This document shows, in pieces, positions 367-33,899 of a stretch of 33,899 nucleotides of DNA. The DNA is from a virus: IMG/VR virus record IMGVR_UViG_3300047462_000043, positions 1-33,899 of that record; one strand, given 5' to 3'. The notes beneath the pieces are model-generated. The model saw only the letters and a program-made list of their open reading frames with translations, made no database searches and had not been told where the DNA came from. Numbering within the stretch: the first letter of the stretch is position 1; each line of letters starts with the position of its first letter. Both the position numbers and the translations under genes were made by a program.

Positions 367-454
367 ACACGTAGCCGGTTATTTTCGTGTACTGGAAAAC
401 CTTGTCCTCTCCCTCGTTTACGATCAGGTCGCCTTTGTGGATGTTTTCTTTCAT
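1..454 (-). CDS. TSVGG-repeat protein, N-terminal part (gene spans the contig ends)
   Basis: The ATG at 454-452 is preceded by a GAGGGAG Shine-Dalgarno about 9 bases upstream. The first ~35 residues (MKENIHKGDLIVNEGEDKVF...) form a unique head; 20-residue TSVGGDVT repeats follow to the contig edge. Joined to 33772-32877 after removing the 127-bp duplicate, the gene is 1350 bp (449 residues) and stays in frame, with a Leu codon split across the join. The repeats resemble the leucine-rich-like 'LTSVGG' ladders of other phage proteins and are probably a beta-solenoid. The gene is the first after a promoter and structured leader (612-480). Function unknown; host recognition, DNA mimicry or defence evasion cannot be told apart here. 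Confidence 0.85.
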   Translation of the reverse strand, partial: MKENIHKGDLIVNEGEDKVFQYTKITGYVYARENANVTLPVCTSVGGDVTAWAKSKVTLPVCTSVGGDVTAWENAKVTLPVCTSVGGDVTALENAKVTLTVCTSVGGDVTAWENANVTLPVCTSVGGDVTAWENANVTLPVCTSVGGDVTA

Positions 455-463
455 GGTTTTTTT

Positions 464-474
464 CTCCCTCGACA
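464..474 (-). promoter_or_regulatory. Shine-Dalgarno region able to pair with leader segment A'
   Basis: The minus strand reads TGTCGAGGGAG and contains the ribosome site of the repeat-protein gene. It is perfectly complementary over 11 bases to leader segment 528-518 (CTCCCTCGACA). It is also a partial duplicate of leader segment A (578-570). A' can therefore pair with A or with the ribosome site but not both, the arrangement expected of a translational switch. The pairing is seen in the sequence; the regulation is inferred. Confidence 0.65.
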
Positions 475-483
475 TTTTTTCCG

Positions 484-578
484 TATAAAACAGAGCCGGA
501 CCGGACTTTTGCACTCTTGTCGAGGGAGGGCGGTTTGTCCGATCCGGCTGAAAACAAAACACCGCCTCGCCCTCGACA
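484..578 (-). ncRNA. Pseudoknotted leader RNA-3 (upstream of the repeat-protein gene)
   Basis: Four segments alternate on the minus strand. A (578-562) pairs with A' (533-518) by 9 plus 5 bp. B (549-537, AGCCGGATCGGAC) pairs with B' (506-494, GTCCGGTCCGGCT) over 13 bp with one G-U. The order A-B-A'-B' makes a pseudoknot. B' is followed by CTG and TTTT, a weak terminator-like tail. A starts where transcription from the 612-584 promoter should begin. A' can alternatively mask the Shine-Dalgarno of the next gene. It has the architecture of RNA-1 and RNA-2 but little shared sequence. I do not recognise a known riboswitch class. Confidence 0.65.
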
Positions 579-583
579 TAAAT

Positions 584-612
584 ACTGTAGCAGAGTTTCG
601 TGATGTTATCAA
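584..612 (-). promoter_or_regulatory. Sigma70-like promoter for the repeat-protein operon
   Basis: Minus-strand TTGATA (612-607), a 17-bp spacer, then TACAGT (589-584). The expected start, about 577-578, coincides with the first base of pseudoknot segment A. It is weaker than the two promoters at 2034 and 4901 but has the same spacing and the same relation to a structured leader. Confidence 0.6.
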
Positions 613-629
613 GGCCTCGTAACATTCCT

Positions 630-1019
630 TCAAAATTCATTCTCCTCGATTTCCGGCGCTTCCGGCTGCTCGGTCCGCTCGCGTTCTCTTTCCTGCACTA
701 CTCCCGGGGCCATGACTGACGTTTGCTCGGGGACCAGGACGCCGGACTTATGCATGTGAAAAATAAACGGCGGCTTTGGATGTGTGTCGATCATCATGCG
801 CCAGCTTTCTGACGTGAACGATGATGGTTTTCGTTTGCCTTCGCCCGTCACCAAAGAGGCAACGGGGCCGGTCACGCGGCGGCACTCGCTATAGACGCAC
901 ACCGGCACGCGCGCGAAACGGATCAGTTGCGGCTTATCCGGGCCGTTCTCGGTTTGGTACAGATATTCAACGTAGCTGGACTCGTGACAGTTTTTCACTT
1001 CCAATGCTCCATTGCTCAT
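630..1019 (-). CDS. Hypothetical protein, 129 aa
   Basis: ATG at 1019 overlaps the stop of the upstream replication-like gene in an ATGA, so translation is probably coupled. The protein has a mixed alpha/beta-looking body with Cys at positions 11, 41 and 46 and a charged tail rich in Glu and Arg (ERERERTEQPEAPE). No family recognised. It is the last gene before the intergenic region holding the repeat-protein promoter and leader RNA. Confidence 0.75.
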   Translation of the reverse strand: MSNGALEVKNCHESSYVEYLYQTENGPDKPQLIRFARVPVCVYSECRRVTGPVASLVTGEGKRKPSSFTSESWRMMIDTHPKPPFIFHMHKSGVLVPEQTSVMAPGVVQERERERTEQPEAPEIEENEF

Positions 1020-1720
1020 TTCGCGCAGTCCTCCTGTTTCATCCTCAGCACGATTTCACAGCCGCGCCGTTCGTCGGCTTGTAGCTTCGTCATGTTTTTT
1101 AATGCCCACTCGCAGTAGTCCGCGGGAAGCTCACCGATTCGCACGCCTTGAAACTGGCCTTTAAAGTGCCACGGCTTCGAGAGTATCGCGGTGTCCTCAA
1201 TCAAAGCCGCCGTTTCTTTTTCCGTGGCCGTCGCCGTACCGTGGGGCTGAAAGCCCATCTCCGAACGAGCGGTAAGGTCCGGTACGGATGGTAAGGTTAG
1301 GTTAGGTACGGTCGGTACGGTAGGGGCATTGCTTGACTTCGGCTTTAGCATTGCTTGACGAATGCTTGGAGCATACCTATCCCAACGGGCCTTCGCGGCG
1401 GTCTTCGCTCGACGAGAAAATGCGTCTAAGTGGCCTTGATGTTGGAGCCAATCTACGCACTGAAACCCGTTTTTGCTGGCGGAAATGAAGCATGTCCGTC
1501 CCATAGACTCAACCGCTTTTCCGGGCTTTCCGTGCCATCCGATTATGGACTCAATCTCCTTTTTCGTGTACCCCTTCATCCTTCCATCAGTCGGATGATG
1601 TTTGGAACAATAGGCCCACAAACGAATCGGGTAGATGTCCGCTTCCGGTCCGAGGATCGCGACAAGCCTGCGCGTCTTTGGATGGTCGAAGTAGTTAGGA
1701 TCTAGGTTTAGATACGGCAT
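1016..1720 (-). CDS. Replisome-organiser-like protein with DUF3820-like C-terminus
   Basis: 234 residues. The N-terminal ~110 residues (MPYLNLDPNYFDHPKTRRL... GKPGKAVESMGR... FQCVDWLQHQG) match the winged-helix head typical of phage replication initiators of the DnaD/replisome-organiser kind. A Thr/Pro/Val-rich linker (about 130-150) follows. The C-terminal part, around GVRIGELPADYCEWALKN, resembles DUF3820 ('PfGkykG..l.dlP.dYl.W'). Likely role: recruiting host helicase and polymerase, as no phage polymerase is encoded. An AGGA ribosome site lies 6 bases before the ATG. Family assignment is from motif memory, not a search. Confidence 0.75.
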   Translation of the reverse strand: MPYLNLDPNYFDHPKTRRLVAILGPEADIYPIRLWAYCSKHHPTDGRMKGYTKKEIESIIGWHGKPGKAVESMGRTCFISASKNGFQCVDWLQHQGHLDAFSRRAKTAAKARWDRYAPSIRQAMLKPKSSNAPTVPTVPNLTLPSVPDLTARSEMGFQPHGTATATEKETAALIEDTAILSKPWHFKGQFQGVRIGELPADYCEWALKNMTKLQADERRGCEIVLRMKQEDCAK

Positions 1721-1866
1721 CCGATATCCTGTTTAAAACGGCCAGTCCCATCCCCCGACGGGTTCCCGCTGGACTGGGTAGCGGCGCACACGATTAATGC
1801 GGCCGTCTGTTCTGCCCGCTGGTCTTTTTGGGACTGCTGGCGAGAGTCATAATTCGTTCCTGACAT
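1708..1866 (-). CDS. Small hypothetical protein, 52 aa
   Basis: ATG at 1866, downstream of the RNA-1 terminator-like element; ends in TAA overlapping the next gene by 13 bases. The product is hydrophilic with Gln/Ser-rich stretches and one Cys-containing hydrophobic patch (AALIVCAATQSS). The same frame extends upstream to an ATG at 1983, but that part would be translated through the strong hairpin and T8 tract, so I reject it. The ribosome site is weak. Moderate to low confidence that it is a real gene. Confidence 0.45.
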   Translation of the reverse strand: MSGTNYDSRQQSQKDQRAEQTAALIVCAATQSSGNPSGDGTGRFKQDIGCRI

Positions 1867-1893
1867 ATTGACAAAACCGCAATGTCCAGGATT

Positions 1894-1964
1894 AAAAAAA
1901 AGGCCCGACGCGCCGCGCTTAGGCGGGTGCCCTGACAAGCTCTCGCAAGAGGCGGCGCGTCGGG
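1894..1964 (-). terminator. Intrinsic terminator formed by the B/B' stem of RNA-1
   Basis: A 13-bp GC-rich perfect stem (1964-1952 with 1916-1904) is followed two bases later by eight Ts on the transcribed strand. The ~35-nt loop carries A', which pairs with the RNA 5' end. The long loop is unusual for a plain terminator and suggests conditional termination. Confidence 0.8.
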
Positions 1965-1999
1965 GTAAATTATTTTCTTGCATTGGCTTGTCAGGGCCT
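1894..1999 (-). ncRNA. Pseudoknotted leader RNA-1 ending in a T8 tract
   Basis: A (1998-1985, core GCCCTGACAAGC) pairs perfectly over 12 bp with A' (1940-1929, GCTTGTCAGGGC). B (1964-1952, CCCGACGCGCCGC) pairs perfectly over 13 bp with B' (1916-1904). The order is A-B-A'-B', so A' lies in the loop of the B stem. B' is followed by CC and eight Ts (1901-1894). A begins one base after the expected start of the 2034-2006 promoter. The result is a ~106-nt transcript: a free small RNA, or an attenuator before the replication genes. It shares GGCCC...CAAG and ACGCGCCG/CGGCGCGT with RNA-2. Confidence 0.8.
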
Positions 2000-2005
2000 T
2001 GGTTA

Positions 2006-2034
2006 ATAATACAGATGTTGCGGATTTATGTCAA
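2006..2034 (-). promoter_or_regulatory. Consensus-like sigma70 promoter for RNA-1
   Basis: Minus-strand TTGACA (2034-2029), exact 17-bp spacer, TATTAT (2011-2006); -35 perfect, -10 five of six. The expected start is near 1999, directly before leader segment A. It overlaps the last codons of the winged-helix gene. Confidence 0.85.
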
Positions 2035-2259
2035 GGGGAACAATTGCTCGATGGGCAAGCGCTCGCGCAAGCAGAACTCTTTGTAGTTGGCATTCTTTCG
2101 GTATCGGCCGACCACTTCCCCAGCCTTAGCCATTTCGCTCAGACGTGTAGCGGCTGAGTTTTTGGACGCGCCGATTAATCCAAGTTCATGCACGGCGAGA
2201 AACGGCTGCGGCGAGGTCTTGAGACGTTCGCGGATTTTGTCTTTCTGCGTGGGCTTCAA
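2026..2259 (-). CDS. Winged-helix DNA-binding protein, 77 aa
   Basis: Starts with TTG at 2259 in a TTGA overlap with the stop of the HNH gene. KIRERLKTSPQPF, then ASKNSAATRLSEMAKAGEVV and a GRY strand-turn form a recognisable helix-turn-helix plus wing, as in small phage regulators and replication accessory proteins. Its stop overlaps the -35 box of the promoter at 2034, so it could regulate that promoter; this is inferred from position only. Confidence 0.75.
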   Translation of the reverse strand: MKPTQKDKIRERLKTSPQPFLAVHELGLIGASKNSAATRLSEMAKAGEVVGRYRKNANYKEFCLRERLPIEQLFPLT

Positions 2260-2771
2260 TGTGAACCTCCGTTCATTAGGTGATCCGCCAACTCCTTAAA
2301 GTCGGGAATGCTGGGCTTGAAGATGCCAAGTGATTTCTGCGCGAGGTCCGCCATAAAATCCGCGCCGAAAATCTTCTTGTGATGTTCGGCGTACAGGTGG
2401 CGGTTACGCATTTCTCCGAGATTGCACGGTCCACAGGCGGCTACGCCTGCTTCCAAGTCCCAGCGCGTCGCCAGGCGGTTACGCTCGATCAGGTGGTACC
2501 CGCACTCGTTGCGGACAGTGCAGCCCTTCGCCTTCCGGATGCGGCAAACATCCCCGTATCGCTTCATGTCGCGCGCGCGGACGGCGCGGGCCCAAAGGGC
2601 GTCACAGCGATCGCGCCACCACTTCCATAGAGATCCCGACCGCTTCACCTTCACGCGGTCGGCCCAATGCAACGTCGCGCGCTTGGCGATGGCCTTTTCC
2701 TTGCGGGACGCGGCCTTAGCCTTGATCGCGTTGAATTCGGAGCGGGAGAGGCGCATGGGGTATGGGGTCAT
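2256..2771 (-). CDS. NinG-like / HNH-type recombination nuclease, 171 aa
   Basis: I chose the ATG at 2771 because it overlaps the upstream stop as ATGA; an in-frame ATG at 2798 is an alternative. A basic Lys/Arg/Ala-rich N-terminus is followed by a zinc/HNH-like region: C..RKAKGC, ECGYHLIERNRLATRWD, then CGPCNLGEMRNRHLYAEH. This resembles the NinG/Rap layout (paired Cys, conserved His, CxxCN with a downstream His). Such proteins act on recombination intermediates. The neighbouring PD-(D/E)XK nuclease supports a recombination or replication block. Confidence 0.7.
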   Translation of the reverse strand: MTPYPMRLSRSEFNAIKAKAASRKEKAIAKRATLHWADRVKVKRSGSLWKWWRDRCDALWARAVRARDMKRYGDVCRIRKAKGCTVRNECGYHLIERNRLATRWDLEAGVAACGPCNLGEMRNRHLYAEHHKKIFGADFMADLAQKSLGIFKPSIPDFKELADHLMNGGSH

Positions 2772-3112
2772 TTGTGGGTAAAATAGCGGGATTTGCATCC
2801 CTGGAATGTAGTCTCGCAATCGTTCAACACAGTCTGATACGGGAGCATGAGCGACTTTTCTACTAGCTCCCGCTCCCGGCTGTTTAGGTCCGGGTGCTTA
2901 TCTCGGACGTAAAACATAATCTTTACCCGTTGCTCGATGACGTGCGCCTCGGCCGCGTCCCTAATCCTCGCGGCCTTGTCCGTTGCTTCGAGAGCCGTCA
3001 AAACGTCGAGAGCCTGCGCGGCTTCTTCGGCAGGCTTCCCGGTTTGCGAGTATATACGTAACTGTTCGCGACTTTTCGACGTAACGCCTAGCCATTTATC
3101 GAATTCATTCAT
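2768..3112 (-). CDS. Hypothetical alpha-helical protein, 114 aa
   Basis: ATG at 3112 has no good Shine-Dalgarno; the A/T-rich leader carries a compact pseudoknot at 3124-3154. The protein is predicted mostly helical (EEAAQALDVLTALEATDKAAR, and a conserved-looking C-terminal region with paired Cys). No family recognised. Its place between the putative DNA-binding protein and the NinG-like protein suggests a replication or recombination role. Confidence 0.75.
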   Translation of the reverse strand: MNEFDKWLGVTSKSREQLRIYSQTGKPAEEAAQALDVLTALEATDKAARIRDAAEAHVIEQRVKIMFYVRDKHPDLNSRERELVEKSLMLPYQTVLNDCETTFQGCKSRYFTHK

Positions 3113-3123
3113 ATATAAAATTG

Positions 3124-3168
3124 TGAGCGGATTTGAGAGGGACGCTCAGCCCTCGCCGGATTCCCGGC
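3124..3168 (-). promoter_or_regulatory. Compact H-type pseudoknot with adjacent hairpin in a gene leader
   Basis: On the minus strand, GAGGG (3154-3150) pairs with CCCTC (3141-3137) and TGAGCG (3148-3143) pairs with CGCTCA (3129-3124). They interleave with loops of 1, 1 and 7 nt, which fits classical H-type geometry. A GCCGG/CCGGC hairpin (3168-3155) precedes it. An A/U-rich stretch and the start codon of the 114-aa gene follow. The layout recalls the T4 gene 32 autoregulatory leader. Pairing is observed; function is inferred. Confidence 0.55.
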
Positions 3169-3177
3169 AGAACTTAA

Positions 3178-3528
3178 TTAATCCTCTTTCGCCGATCCCG
3201 CCTCCGCGTCGGAGTAGGGCTTAGCGATGATCATGTCGTGACCGTTCGGCGCGGGCAAGATAGCGATTCGCGCCTTCTTCCCCACCCATTTCTCCGTATT
3301 AGTTCCCCAGGACTTAACGAGGATTTTTCGAGTCGTTGCGTTGGGGCTGTAGGTTTTCGACTCTCCGTTGAGAGACACAGTGACCTCGAAAACCTCCTTT
3401 TCTTCCTTCTCCACCCCTTGACCGAATTCCCGCGTGAGAATTTTCCCGGCGTCAACAAACGTGATGACGTCTCCGTCTTTGCATCCGTCAGGCTTTAGAA
3501 ACTTCGACAGCTTGCTTATGTCTGGCAT
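3178..3528 (-). CDS. Putative DNA-binding/recombination accessory protein, 116 aa
   Basis: ATG at 3528 overlaps the nuclease gene by 41 bases; AAGGAG lies about 10 bases upstream. The layout 'LKPDGCKDGDVITFVDAGKI ... VTVSLNGESKTYSPN...TTRKILVKSWG.NTEKWVGKKARI' is typical of a small all-beta family found beside phage exonucleases and replication genes. It could be an OB-like single-strand binding or recombination accessory protein, but no domain is certain. The acidic tail (SDAEAGSAKED) resembles the tails of single-strand binding proteins. Confidence 0.7.
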   Translation of the reverse strand: MPDISKLSKFLKPDGCKDGDVITFVDAGKILTREFGQGVEKEEKEVFEVTVSLNGESKTYSPNATTRKILVKSWGTNTEKWVGKKARIAILPAPNGHDMIIAKPYSDAEAGSAKED

Positions 3529-4306
3529 TGGCTTTAGTCTCCTTTTCTTTTTCGAGTTTTATCCGCAATGGGTAGTCACGCTGTTTAGGCTCGACCCCCT
3601 TCTGCTCTTTGGCCCAGATAGTCTTGGCGGCCAAAAATTCGGCGTAGTTGTCGTCTACTTCCGTAAACTTGTACCGCCTCTTATTAAGGCGGTATCCGAC
3701 TTGCAGTATAGCCAGCTTGACCGGCTCGCCGCCCGCCGCTTCGTAGGCGTGTTTGTAGGCCGATACCTGTAATTCATGGCTCGGCCAAATGTGCTGGGAT
3801 GTTTTGAAGTCAACGAGGTACAATTCCCCGTTAATCTTGCAGAGTAGGTCAACGGTTCCGGCATAGCCGTCTCCCCATATCGCGAACTCACAGGCTAGGA
3901 GCTCCGGTTTTGCTTCCGAGTACCACGCCGCGAACGCCATAAGGCAATCGTACTCTTCAAGCGTCAATTCCTGTTCTTTCTCGTCGTCCGAAGTCTTGTA
4001 CTTCGCGTCAATGTTGATCGTTTTGCCCTCGATCAAATCCCGAATCGCGTAGTGGACGCGCGATCCTTTATCCCCCGCCGCGTTCTTGATAGACTCGGCC
4101 TCGTCCCATCCGTGAGAGGCAAGCCACTTGTAAAACGCTACGCCTTTGGGGTAATGGTCGCAAATCCACGTCACCGACGGCACGAATTCATTTTCAGGCA
4201 GTCCAGTTTCAGCGTTTTTGCGCTCCCGAACGTACCATCTTTCATCTGTCGTCGTGACGCGGAGAATCCCTTTCTCCTTGTCGACTACCATGATTTCTTT
4301 TTTCAA
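3488..4306 (-). CDS. PD-(D/E)XK exonuclease, RecB/Cas4-like, 272 aa
   Basis: TTG start at 4306 with a strong AAGGAG 5 bases upstream. Motifs in order: GSRVHYAIRD (His85), ACEFAIW (Glu140), GTVDLL (Asp153), LVDFKTS (Asp166-Lys168), then ELQVSAY (Gln180, Tyr184). This is the RecB/Cas4-type active site binding divalent metal. No 4Fe-4S cysteine cluster is evident, so it is closer to phage RecB-like exonucleases than to true Cas4. A basic C-terminal tail (KLEKEKETKANARHKQ) follows. Likely role: end processing in phage recombination or replication. Confidence 0.85.
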   Translation of the reverse strand: MKKEIMVVDKEKGILRVTTTDERWYVRERKNAETGLPENEFVPSVTWICDHYPKGVAFYKWLASHGWDEAESIKNAAGDKGSRVHYAIRDLIEGKTINIDAKYKTSDDEKEQELTLEEYDCLMAFAAWYSEAKPELLACEFAIWGDGYAGTVDLLCKINGELYLVDFKTSQHIWPSHELQVSAYKHAYEAAGGEPVKLAILQVGYRLNKRRYKFTEVDDNYAEFLAAKTIWAKEQKGVEPKQRDYPLRIKLEKEKETKANARHKQAVEVSKA

Positions 4307-4316
4307 TTTATCTCCT

Positions 4317-4469
4317 TTACCGCAAAATCCACGCTATGACGTGAGCGCCGAAGTAGAAAGCAGACATGAAAACTACCGCCCACCCCGCGCACTCCCCAAC
4401 GGACAGCGCCCGCTCCTTTAGTATCATCCTCTCGGCGGCGCGCTCGATTCGGCTCTCAATGTCGATCAT
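4317..4469 (-). CDS. Small single-pass membrane protein, 50 aa
   Basis: ATG at 4469 overlaps the upstream stop as ATGA. An amphipathic charged N-terminal half (SRIERAAERMILKER) is followed by one hydrophobic segment (about residues 29-49, ending VIAWILR). A superinfection-exclusion or membrane-anchoring role is possible; no family recognised. Confidence 0.65.
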   Translation of the reverse strand: MIDIESRIERAAERMILKERALSVGECAGWAVVFMSAFYFGAHVIAWILR

Positions 4470-4654
4470 GCCTTCAACTCCCGCGCGTCTTCGATTGCTT
4501 CCTCTGCCGCTATCTCGTCGGCCTCGTCCTGTAAGTCCTTCTTGCGCCGTGCGCACCGCGTCCACTCAACGTGGCCGTTATGGTATTCCTCGCAAAAGTC
4601 GCACCACGACGGCGGGTCCTCGTACTCTCCGGGGCGGTAGTCTAGTATGCTCAA
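4466..4654 (-). CDS. Small CxxC protein, 62 aa
   Basis: TTG start at 4654 in a TTGA overlap with the upstream gene. WCDFCEEYHNGHVEWTRCARR gives CxxC plus a His and a later Cys, a likely zinc site; the C-terminal half is an acidic helix. Member of a run of tiny coupled genes downstream of RNA-2. Confidence 0.65.
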   Translation of the reverse strand: MSILDYRPGEYEDPPSWCDFCEEYHNGHVEWTRCARRKKDLQDEADEIAAEEAIEDARELKA

Positions 4655-4866
4655 GCGGCCTCCATTTTTTTAACGCAGTCCGGGCAGATGGTATGAGTTA
4701 CCGGGAGCGCCGCTTCCCAATCCGCGCGGCCCGTGATGGTATTGCACCACGCGCAGACTTTTAGGGGATGGCAAAGGGACGCGCCGTCCATAGACCTGGC
4801 CCCGCAAGAGCTAGGAGGGATGAACGGCGCGTGAATCGGTTTCCGTCTTTTGCCTTGCGGGGCCAT
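4651..4866 (-). CDS. Small zinc-ribbon protein downstream of RNA-2
   Basis: The C-terminal half holds a clear ribbon: VCAWCNTITGR ... HTICPDCVKKM. The start is uncertain. ATG 4884 lies upstream of the expected transcription start. ATG 4866 would give an essentially leaderless mRNA of 71 residues whose first 25 codons are the pseudoknot RNA. ATG 4791 gives a 46-residue protein whose start lies inside stem B', with a weak AGG site. I give the middle form; if the RNA is real, 4791 is the more natural start and would be controlled by folding. Confidence 0.55.
   Translation of the reverse strand: MAPQGKRRKPIHAPFIPPSSCGARSMDGASLCHPLKVCAWCNTITGRADWEAALPVTHTICPDCVKKMEAA
4770..4866 (-). ncRNA. Pseudoknotted leader RNA-2
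   Basis: A (4864-4854, GGCCCCGCAAG) pairs perfectly over 11 bp with A' (4808-4798, CTTGCGGGGCC). B (4832-4820, ACGCGCCGTTCAT) pairs over 13 bp with B' (4791-4779, ATGGACGGCGCGT), one pair being G-U. The order is A-B-A'-B'. A begins two or three bases after the expected start of the 4901-4873 promoter. Spacings resemble RNA-1 (A-B linker 21 versus 20 nt; B-A' gap 11 nt in both). A:A' bases differ from RNA-1 on both sides so pairing is kept. CCCTTTGCC follows B', a weak tail. Confidence 0.75.
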
Positions 4867-4884
4867 GTGTGAAATATAACACAT
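4865..4884. promoter_or_regulatory. Candidate operator dyad over the -10 box
   Basis: Inverted arms ATGTGT (4865-4870) and ACACAT (4879-4884), separated by 8 bp, straddle the TATATT box of the promoter at 4873-4901. This is a plausible repressor site; no second copy was seen at the other two promoters. Confidence 0.4.
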
Positions 4885-4901
4885 GCCCGCGCGGCTGTCA
4901 A
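4873..4901 (-). promoter_or_regulatory. Consensus-like sigma70 promoter for RNA-2 and the early block
   Basis: Minus-strand TTGACA (4901-4896), exact 17-bp spacer, TATATT (4878-4873). The expected start is around 4866. It lies in the gap after the lysis cassette and is the only strong promoter candidate for the 4.9-2.0 kb gene block. Confidence 0.85.
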
Positions 4902-4905
4902 GTAT

Positions 4906-5103
4906 TTATTTTGCGTCGGCGTCGATTCGCGCTTTTGACGCCGCGTCCACGGCGTCGAGCGCCTTGTCCAAATCGGCAGGCGTGAAGTAGCGCAAGAGGA
5001 AGCGAATCACGGCGTCGACGCGCGACAAGAAAATGACGATGACCGCTTGAACGCAATGCGCCGCGAAAAGATGGTTGAAGATGAGTTGGTCGAGCTTGTC
5101 CAT
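4906..5103 (-). CDS. Small amphipathic membrane protein, holin candidate, 65 aa
   Basis: ATG at 5103 with AAGGAG 6 bases upstream. A hydrophobic segment (VQAVIVIFLSRVDAVIRFLLRYF, about residues 17-39, interrupted by Arg and Asp) is followed by an acidic/basic helix. It sits directly after the endolysin gene, so a holin or lysis accessory role is possible. Charged residues inside the segment make a standard holin call uncertain. Confidence 0.6.
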   Translation of the reverse strand: MDKLDQLIFNHLFAAHCVQAVIVIFLSRVDAVIRFLLRYFTPADLDKALDAVDAASKARIDADAK

Positions 5104-15826: not shown

Positions 15827-16135
15827 CTACCGGAGCAGCTTCTTCAGCATTTCCGATTCCTCGGGGCTCAATCCCTCCGCGGATTCGGAGCCTTCAGCGT
15901 CGGACTCTTTCAAACCTTGCAGAGAGGGTCCAGCCGACTTGGAAATCTCGATCTTGACCGCAGGTCCGGCGCCTTCCGGAGCAAGCCCCTTGCCGAATTC
16001 CGCATCATGCTGTCCGCACCCCAAAGGGTCCGGGCACTCGTCGGCAGAATGGGCCGTCGCGGCCGAACCTTCCATTTCGTCCATTTCGCCCATTAGAGAA
16101 TCTAGGGCCGCGTCGAACATCGCGCTTTTATCCAT
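15827..16135 (-). CDS. Small acidic virion-associated protein, 102 aa
   Basis: Strongly acidic (Asp/Glu/Ser-rich) with one Cys pair (DECPDPLGCGQHDAEFG) and a C-terminal helix (SPEESEMLKKLLR). Such short acidic proteins often sit beside capsid genes in podoviruses. Role unknown. Confidence 0.65.
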   Translation of the reverse strand: MDKSAMFDAALDSLMGEMDEMEGSAATAHSADECPDPLGCGQHDAEFGKGLAPEGAGPAVKIEISKSAGPSLQGLKESDAEGSESAEGLSPEESEMLKKLLR

Positions 16136-28561: not shown

Positions 28562-29259
<698 letters not shown>

Positions 29260-29278
<19 letters not shown>

Positions 29279-29598
29279 GTCGGATTGCCGAGAGTCAGGA
29301 TCATCGTCGCGGGATTCAGCATGTTGGCCGTGGGAGCGATGTTGATCGGATACTGCAAGCACCGGCTGATACGATTATTCTCTTCGGCCACGCGCGACAG
29401 GTCGGGGAGAGCGGAGGCCAGAGAGGCGGTAAGGGCGGCGAGTTTGTTCATGGCATCGATAGGGTTCTCGTAGAGGCACCGCGCGTATACTTCAACGTCT
29501 CCGCCATCGGAGTAATTCGGATCAATCGCAAGAGCTATGGCTCGAATCTTCCTCCGCAATTCATCGCGTTCGACGCAAGCCAAATGAAGCGCGTCCAC
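29260..29598 (-). CDS. Hypothetical protein, C-terminal part of a probably frameshifted gene
   Basis: The frame opens with GTG 29598 but has no good ribosome site there. It begins DALHLACVERDELRRKI, where HLAC supplies His and Cys ligands that complete the CRKC of the frame upstream (29663-29535). A long helix rich in Ala and Leu and a C-terminal tail with NPATMILTLGNP follow. With one extra G in the GGGG run near 29610 the two frames fuse into one zinc-binding protein. Either a real disruption, a frameshift or an assembly error. Confidence 0.6.
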
Positions 29599-31273: not shown

Positions 31274-31583
31274 GCAGTCGCCCTGACGCGGTCCCCGATG
31301 CGGTCCCTGATGCGGGCCCCGATGCGGTACCAGATGCGGTCCCAGATGCGGTTCCCAACGCGGTCCCTGATGCGGTCCCTGACGCGGTCCCTGACGCGGT
31401 CCCTGATGCGGGCCCCGACGCGGCCCTCGGTGCGGTACCTGATGCGGTTCCCAACGCGGTCCCTGATGCGGTCCCTGATGCGGTCCCTGACGCTGGCCCT
31501 GACGCGGTCCCTGACGCAATTACTGATACGATTGCCAACGCGGTCACCGACGCGGTACCCCGGCACGGCGTTCTCGGTTCTGT
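31170..31583 (-). other. Open frame after the DUF6745 stop, encoding a Thr-Ala-Ser-Gly repeat
   Basis: Directly after the TGA of the DUF6745 gene (31586-31584) the same frame stays open for 137 codons. It runs through the 12-bp array as GTASGPASGTASGTAS and overlaps the zinc-ribbon gene. There is no ATG; a GTG lies at 31547. Silent-looking variation in the array favours this frame or the opposing plus-strand AVPD frame. Could be a readthrough extension or a dead remnant. Confidence 0.35.
31288..31563. repeat. 12-bp tandem array, 23 units in strict register
   Basis: The unit GCGGTCCCTGAT (plus strand) is repeated 23 times with no indels; the last is degenerate. It fills the 310-bp gap between the DUF6745 and zinc-ribbon genes. 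Most differences fall at every third base (Ala GCG/GCT/GCA, Val GTC/GTA/GTT, Pro CCT/CCC/CCA, Asp GAT/GAC). All three minus frames and two plus frames are open through it. Confidence 0.9.
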
Positions 31584-32876: not shown

Positions 32877-33899
32877 TCATTTTAGCGGGCCTCCGCTTTG
32901 GCTATGGCGGCGCGCAACCCCCGCGAAAAACTGCGCGAATATATCCGAACCGTAAGCGCCCTTCGTCCGATCAATGATGCCTTGCACCGTGATCTTGTCC
33001 GGCGTCTCCCGCTGTCCCATCCACACCCGGACCCCGCCTTCACACGCGCCAGTAATCACGCGGTAAGCCTTGATAGCTTCGGCCTTCGTCACTTCGCGGT
33101 CCAAGGTCCACGACTTGAATTCCGTCGTGTCTCGGTTGCCGATCTTGTAGAGAAATCCGTCCCGCGCTTCTGCCAGCGTCTTTCCGTGCGAAAACGCATC
33201 GCCGTTAGTGACGATGTAAGAGATTTCCTTTTTGCCGCAAATAATTACTTTTGCAACTGGGCCGCGACGTGAGACGACTTTTGCCAGGATTCCGTCGTCA
33301 AACGAAAACCCTGCGGCGGCGAAAGACTCCAGGAGCATTTTGCGGCATAGTCTAGCGGCGCTTGGGTCATTCTTTTTCACGTTGACCGGCAGGGTCACCT
33401 TCGCGTTCTCCCGCGCGGTCACGTCGCCGCCCACGGACGTGCAGACAGGCAGGGTCACATTGGCGTTCTCCCACGCGGTCACGTCGCCGCCCACGGACGT
33501 GCAGACAGTCAGGGTCACCTTCGCGTTCTCCCGCGCGGTCACGTCGCCGCCCACGGACGTGCAGACAGTCAGGGTCACCTTCGATTTCTCCCGCGCGGTC
33601 ACGTCGCCGCCCACGGACGTGCAGACAGGCAGGGTCACATTGGCGTTCTCCCACGCGGTCACGTCGCCGCCCACGGACGTGCAGACAGTCAGGGTCACAT
33701 TGGCGTTCTCCCGCGCGGTCACGTCGCCGCCCACGGACGTGCAGACAGTCAGGGTCACCTTCGCGTTCTCCAGCGCGGTCACGTCGCCGCCCACGGACGT
33801 GCAGACAGGCAGGGTCACATTGGCGTTCTCCCACGCGGTCACGTCGCCGCCCACGGACGTGCAGACAGGCAGGGTCACATTGGCGTTCTCCCACGCGGT
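32877..33899 (-). CDS. TSVGG-repeat protein, C-terminal part (gene spans the contig ends)
   Basis: Continues the gene that starts at 454. The repeats (eight TSVGGDVT copies on this side, two lying in the duplicated end) give way at about 33388 to a ~165-residue C-terminal domain. Its hallmarks are [56 protein letters not shown] and [20 protein letters not shown]. That domain is familiar from phage and Firmicute repeat proteins of unknown function. An M at 33878 is inside the repeats and is not a true start. Confidence 0.85.
33390..33899. repeat. 60-bp tandem repeat array, right part
   Basis: Eight full copies of the same 60-bp unit as at 1-366 plus a partial. After removing the duplicated 127 bases, twelve TSVGGDV copies remain in the whole gene. 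Variant positions (Trp/Leu/Arg; Asn/Lys; Pro/Thr) are combined in mosaic fashion along the array. Confidence 0.95.
33773..33899. repeat. Right copy of the 127-bp terminal duplication
   Basis: Identical to 1-127. See the left copy: this is most likely the k-mer overlap of a circular assembly. Confidence 0.9.

Follow-up and report, generated by a model that had tools for sequence, protein, structure and literature searches.

Interleaved RNA helices behind promoters in a small group of related phages: candidate 5′-leader attenuators at predicted leaderless start codons

The stretch of DNA analyzed here, referred to as the window, is the 33.9-kb IMG/VR virus record IMGVR_UViG_3300047462_000043 (33,899 nucleotides), in which nearly all genes lie on the minus strand. 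Its terminase and major head proteins were identified via PHROGs, and it also encodes an exonuclease and a replication-initiation protein. Both ends of the window fall within the 60-bp repeats of one repeat-protein gene, and the window looks like a circularly permuted genome broken within that gene. IMG/VR was scanned with terminase, portal, capsid, and exonuclease, both as single proteins and as alignments, and the only close relatives obtained were two contigs, G002 (34,256 bp; terminase 71% and capsid 83% identical to the window) and G003 (25,144 bp; terminase 62% identical); a distant phage, G001, was added via its exonuclease. Like the window, the G002 contig is interrupted within the repeat-protein gene, so the two appear to be complete genomes in permuted form. 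No prophage emerged from two scans of bacterial genomes, and among isolated phages only a Silvanigrella aquatica phage is related, distantly (24–33% identity). Other repeats in the window are a 12-bp tandem array of ~19.5 copies in a short frame of Arg-Asp-type repeats (31281–31514) and a CGGCGG-type run (28714–28793) in an Ala-rich frame (28562–29362), with a similar run in G002 at ~4950–5000.

Three sites in the window, and three in its close relatives, carry a promoter directly followed by two interleaved helices, A and B, in the order A-B-A′-B′. The features are as follows.

584..612, minus: element 1 promoter, TTGATA-17-TACAGT (9/12 in a consensus scan, TG before the −10 box)
494..578, minus: element 1 interleaved helices (0/1500 shuffles)
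482..493, minus: element 1 U-rich tract after B′, CTGTTTTATACG
451..579, minus: element 1 leader ORF, 42 codons, ATG at the predicted transcript start
464..474, minus: third copy of the element 1 A arm, TGTCGAGGGAG, covering the Shine-Dalgarno site of the repeat-protein gene
start at 454, minus: repeat-protein gene, 60-bp tandem repeats at 2–377 and 33384–33899 of the window
2006..2034, minus: element 2 promoter, TTGACA-17-TATTAT (11/12)
1904..1997, minus: element 2 interleaved helices (0/1500 shuffles)
1894..1903, minus: element 2 U tract, CCTTTTTTTT, immediately 3′ of B′
1708..1983, minus: element 2 open frame, 91 codons, ATG ~16 nt past the predicted start
1016..1720, minus: replication-initiation protein-like gene behind element 2 (PHROG 9474, E = 1.7e-9)
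4873..4901, minus: element 3 promoter, TTGACA-17-TATATT (11/12)
4779..4865, minus: element 3 interleaved helices (0/1500 shuffles)
4651..4866, minus: element 3 open frame, 71 codons, ATG at the predicted transcript start
promoters at 4298 and 33528 of G002, plus: the two G002 elements (both promoters 11/12)
promoter at 15924 of G003, minus: the G003 element (11/12)

The three sigma70-like promoters with 17-bp spacing named in a preliminary description of this DNA are confirmed at 612–584, 2034–2006, and 4901–4873, as is the presence of A-B-A′-B′ pairs at each of the three start sites, which are themselves predictions. The promoters of elements 2 and 3 outscore all others within the first 6 kb of the window, and that of element 1 is weaker. 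As pairing potential, helix A comprises 9 bp in element 1 (578–570/526–518, plus six inner pairs, 566–561/534–529), 12 bp in element 2 (1997–1986/1940–1929, plus six inner pairs, 1981–1976/1950–1945), and 13 bp in element 3 (4865–4853/4809–4797). Helix B comprises 13 bp in each (549–537/506–494 with one G-U pair, 1964–1952/1916–1904, and 4832–4820/4791–4779 with one G-U pair, respectively). The linkers of elements 1, 2, and 3 measure 20, 21, and 20 nt from A to B, 10, 11, and 10 nt from B to A′, and 11, 12, and 5 nt from A′ to B′.

The elements differ in what follows them. The TGA of the element 1 leader ORF overlaps the ATG (454–452) of the repeat-protein gene, and the third A-arm copy just upstream of that gene could form 11 bp with A′ (528–518). 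The element 2 frame overlaps the start (1720) of the replication-initiation gene. The preliminary description had assigned the elements to three early operons; this stands for element 3, which opens the early region, while elements 2 and 1 precede the replication-initiation and repeat-protein genes. The frame of element 3, whose first 30–40 codons are the element itself, carries a zinc-ribbon-like CxxC...CxxC pattern in its C-terminal part and has no match in Pfam or PHROG.

A scan for promoters followed by interleaved helices identified the three further elements, two in G002 and one in G003. Their stem sequences differ from those in the window. The G003 element occupies the same position as element 2, with an HNH/NinG-like gene on one side and, on the other, a relative of the replication-initiation gene behind element 2, and the G002 element at 33528 (G002-33528) comes after a holin-like gene, as does element 3. 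In these two syntenic pairs the gene order matches and the stems differ, with identities, promoter included, of 55% (element 3 vs. G002-33528) and 48% (element 2 vs. G003). Across all six elements the stem sequences are unlike one another and the layout is common to all; outside the pair of element 3 and G002-33528, the stems show no sequence relationship. Alignment with MAFFT gave six pair positions in common between element 3 and G002-33528, with one two-sided change, and none between element 2 and G003; the alignment is too divergent for a covariance model or for a claim of covariation of the kind scored by R-scape. Several strong promoters in the relatives lack an element (G002-8051, G002-11103, G003-19541, and G003-13783), and the Silvanigrella aquatica phage carries none. 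No Rfam family, including EAR and C4, matched the window at the gathering threshold, and between 430 and 5000 there was only a chance miRNA match (E = 2.3). These results support the view of the elements as one family, made up of structured RNAs in leaders immediately downstream of promoters, outside Rfam and so far known from three related genomes. Since the layout is kept while the letters of the stems are replaced wholesale, such RNAs escape detection by sequence similarity and by covariance models built on alignments, but they can be found by looking for interleaved helices close to promoters.

The coincidence of promoter and interleaved pairs had been called very unlikely to arise by chance, and the shuffling controls bear this out. 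In 60 dinucleotide shuffles of the complete window, no helix pair in a similar geometry reached a total of 22 bp for A and B, and none of 1,500 shuffled downstream regions per element reached the observed stack energy. In approximate stacking energies, the six elements sum to −50 to −63 kcal/mol, both stems being ~−20 or better, vs. −39 kcal/mol for the best shuffle. The shuffles fall far short, and chance was rejected as the source of the pairs. With strong hits defined by a sum of −45 or better and −18 or better for each stem, and both strands scanned, all strong hits in the window are the three element sites, and across the window, G002, and G003 strong interleaved pairs occur only at these promoters. 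A pattern scan for a promoter plus U tract yielded 80 unrelated viral loci, none with a strong promoter-proximal interleaved pair; the best pair at any of 2,613 promoter-like sites, taken from 694 kb of such loci, reached −43 kcal/mol, with a weak A stem. Because these loci are mostly AT-rich, five unrelated GC-rich phages, BPP-1, phiKMV, D3, F116, and HK022, were added as controls. Each of their genomes contains 0–4 chance pairs that pass the same cutoff, none at a promoter. An effect of GC content was rejected. DNA inverted repeats serving a repressor were likewise rejected, since the helices interleave and their G-U pairs are strand-biased: the nine G-U pairs fit the transcribed strand. When the opposite strand is read instead, element 1, G002-4298, and G002-33528 lose much of their pairing strength and element 3 loses some, and element 2 and the G003 element pair equally well.

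Several features not contained in the preliminary description concern translation. An AUG lies 4–7 nt past the −10 box in five of the six elements, compared with 5–7% of comparable sites (P ~6e-6), placing it at the predicted transcript start; element 2 is the sole exception. The U and G of this AUG, or the codons right after it, lie in stem A. A reading frame is open through the structure in all six (joint P = 0.006 in shuffles), single frames of such length not being rare at 58% GC (0.3–0.55 each). The leader peptides show no conservation among the elements. In both G002 elements the leader frame and the next likely start are in the same phase. For G002-33528 (33563 frame) a PHROG 1273 match covers the protein from residue 37 onward, where an internal Met has a Shine-Dalgarno site of its own; the first 36 codons are thus leader. 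The 12 bases after B′ are rich in U (41 T of 72 over the six elements, P = 3e-13), the tract being strong in element 2 (T8), G002-4298, and G003, and weak in elements 1, 3, and G002-33528. A third copy of the A arm lies over the next Shine-Dalgarno site in element 1 and, in a shorter form, in G002-33528; its pairing amounts to 11 bp and 8 bp in these two and to at most 7 bp in the others.

Predicted leaderless starts were also surveyed more widely. Among 759 promoters scoring at least 10/12, seven have a leaderless AUG under a stem at least as stable as −12 kcal/mol; by strength, elements described here take the first four ranks, and the fifth belongs to the distant phage G001. This AT-rich phage (IMGVR_UViG_3300033149_002467; 3654–3820, plus) has a 16-bp 5′ stem over a leaderless AUG and, directly after it, an intrinsic terminator of the ordinary kind; a frame of 48 codons runs through both, making this a nested analogue of the arrangement. 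An AUG exactly 6 nt past the −10 box and free of structure is present at G002 8051 and 11103 (plus) and at G003 19541 (minus). The use of leaderless mRNAs seems to be widespread in this phage group.

The order A-B-A′-B′ is found in six of six elements, and the term pseudoknot is used for them as a prediction, as is the coexistence of both helices. The linker between A′ and B′ measures 11, 12, 5, and 3 nt in four elements and 0 nt in both G002 elements, where a full H-type pseudoknot would therefore be strained. In nested folding alone, the stability of B roughly matches or exceeds that of A, and the AUG would thus be reopened if the helices excluded each other. Such a bistable switch between mutually exclusive hairpins would be consistent with the zero-length linkers and with the small difference between A-only and B-only folds (1–6 kcal/mol). 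However, A and B share no bases in any element, and their summed stacks, charged with a fixed pseudoknot penalty of 9.6 kcal/mol, are more favorable than the best nested fold by 3–17 kcal/mol in every element; we consider the switch unlikely. When truncated RNAs were folded, four of the five leaderless cases kept the first AUG largely open up to the synthesis of A′; with A′ present, at least the last base of the AUG was closed, again in four of five.

The U tract, the open frame, and the closing of the AUG upon appearance of A′ suggest a leader attenuator based on competition between ribosome and folding, and as the interlocked RNA sits on the start of a short reading frame, the downstream genes are probably gated. 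We tentatively propose that the elements are cis-acting 5′-leader attenuators of leaderless early mRNAs in this phage group, a reading that we hold to be quite possible, if somewhat short of probable. It draws on the recurrence of one layout with unlike stems in three phages, the conserved gene order of two pairs, the position of the AUG, the open frames, the U bias, the fit of the G-U pairs to the transcribed strand, the G001 analogue, and the mycobacterial precedent described below. It is weakened by the absence of an AUG at the start of element 2, the weak U tract of three elements, the nonconserved leader peptides, the commonness of open frames of this length, the abutting A′ and B′ of both G002 elements, and the stability of B, which in the absence of a pseudoknot would turn the leader into a two-state switch. 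The leader would fold during transcription into two interleaved helices, with helix A sequestering the first codons and helix B, together with the U-rich tract, resembling an intrinsic terminator. Before A′ exists the AUG would be largely open, and a 70S ribosome starting there would prevent A and B from forming, so that transcription and translation would continue into the operon. Without a timely ribosome start, A′ and then B′ would emerge and the start codon would be shut; the folded leader would then either release RNA polymerase or keep the downstream start shut. In element 1, a freed A′ could also cover the next Shine-Dalgarno site. That the elements form a new class of phage attenuator, in which a leaderless start codon is shut by a pseudoknot with a U tract at its end, and the operon opens only if a 70S ribosome starts before folding, is possible but on the doubtful side.

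Other functions can be envisaged for RNAs of this kind. On T4 gene 32 mRNA, gp32 shuts the start codon by way of the leader pseudoknot, and the elements could be translational operators at which a phage or ribosomal protein similarly binds the folded 5′ end and shuts the start codon, the U tract being incidental. The placement of stem A against the start codon would suit this mode of action, as would the ability of element 1 and G002-33528 to cover the downstream Shine-Dalgarno site too, but there is no common loop sequence for a protein to read, and the strong U bias after B′ speaks against it; we regard such an operator as improbable. A shield at the 5′ end, whose structure at +1 keeps off pyrophosphohydrolase and 5′ exonuclease and thereby stabilizes the mRNA, would work with any sequence, in keeping with free sequence and a kept structure, and helix A does begin at or a few nucleotides from the predicted start. 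Yet a simple hairpin would be enough for this purpose, leaving the interleaving, the AUG, and the U tract unexplained, which makes a shield very improbable.

The uniform distance from predicted start to the end of B′ (73–96 nt) would also fit stand-alone phage small RNAs or immunity RNAs of the P4 CI/P1 C4 type, made from a promoter, a structured RNA, and a terminator and acting in trans; the A-arm repeat of element 1, ordered like seqA-seqB-seqC of P4 CI (PMC4825925), points the same way. Against this, the window genes behind the elements have no other promoter of at least 10/12, the U tract is weak in three elements, Rfam gives no C4 match, and the third A-arm copy is confined to element 1 and, shorter, G002-33528, so that stand-alone RNAs appear fairly improbable. 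The preliminary description had pointed to RNAs of the put/EAR type, in which nascent RNA binds RNA polymerase and terminators are ignored, here along a genome with nearly all genes on one strand. A site just behind promoters is what this would predict, but it is not supported: the helices interleave, no stem sequence is common to the six elements or even to copies within one genome, no Rfam match was found, put consists of two stem-loops with conserved residues (PMC9378689), and the U tract after B′ resembles a terminator rather than an antiterminator. We consider action of this type quite improbable.

If the attenuator reading is true, the phage could sense the readiness of its host to translate leaderless mRNA. 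The mechanism would couple transcription attenuation in early operons of phages with the translation of leaderless mRNAs, a process that few known regulators use, and would offer a simple reporter system for 70S initiation vs. co-transcriptional folding.

Text searches, which covered few subscription journals, returned no report of such a pseudoknot on leaderless phage mRNAs, and the elements were compared with four known systems. T4 gene 32 likewise has a pseudoknot in a phage 5′ leader; in the present elements the predicted helices are much longer, lie at the start codon itself, serve several operons, and share no conserved loop. The HK022 putL and putR sites resemble the elements as structured RNAs just behind early phage promoters, in more than one copy per genome. 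However, putL and putR, each coding for ~70 nt of RNA, have sequence in common and form two stem-loops each (PMC9378689), whereas the elements share their layout only and show neither the two-stem-loop form nor sequence similarity between copies. P4 CI RNA, which pairs with the flanking seqA and seqC (PMC4825925), and P1 C4 provide another case of a phage operon leader with repeated complementary segments. This likeness is clear only in element 1, and the elements differ in that their helices interleave inside a single unit of 90 nt, an open frame runs along the leader, and Rfam gives no match. In mycobacteria, small leaderless ORFs are reported to control downstream genes by attenuation, as cited in a review (PMC9031893). 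The mycobacterial attenuators, the ribosome-mediated pyrBI and trp attenuators, and the elements have in common a short frame in the leader, read from the operon's 5′ end, a helix like that of a terminator inside this frame, and a downstream gene starting at or near the end of the leader; the U tract after the helix is strong in three of the elements and weak in the other three. In contrast to those attenuators, the helices of the elements interleave rather than forming overlapping alternatives, runs of a single codon are absent, and termination is predicted. The leader frame running into a terminator-like helix, a feature of ribosome-mediated attenuators, is found in all six elements.
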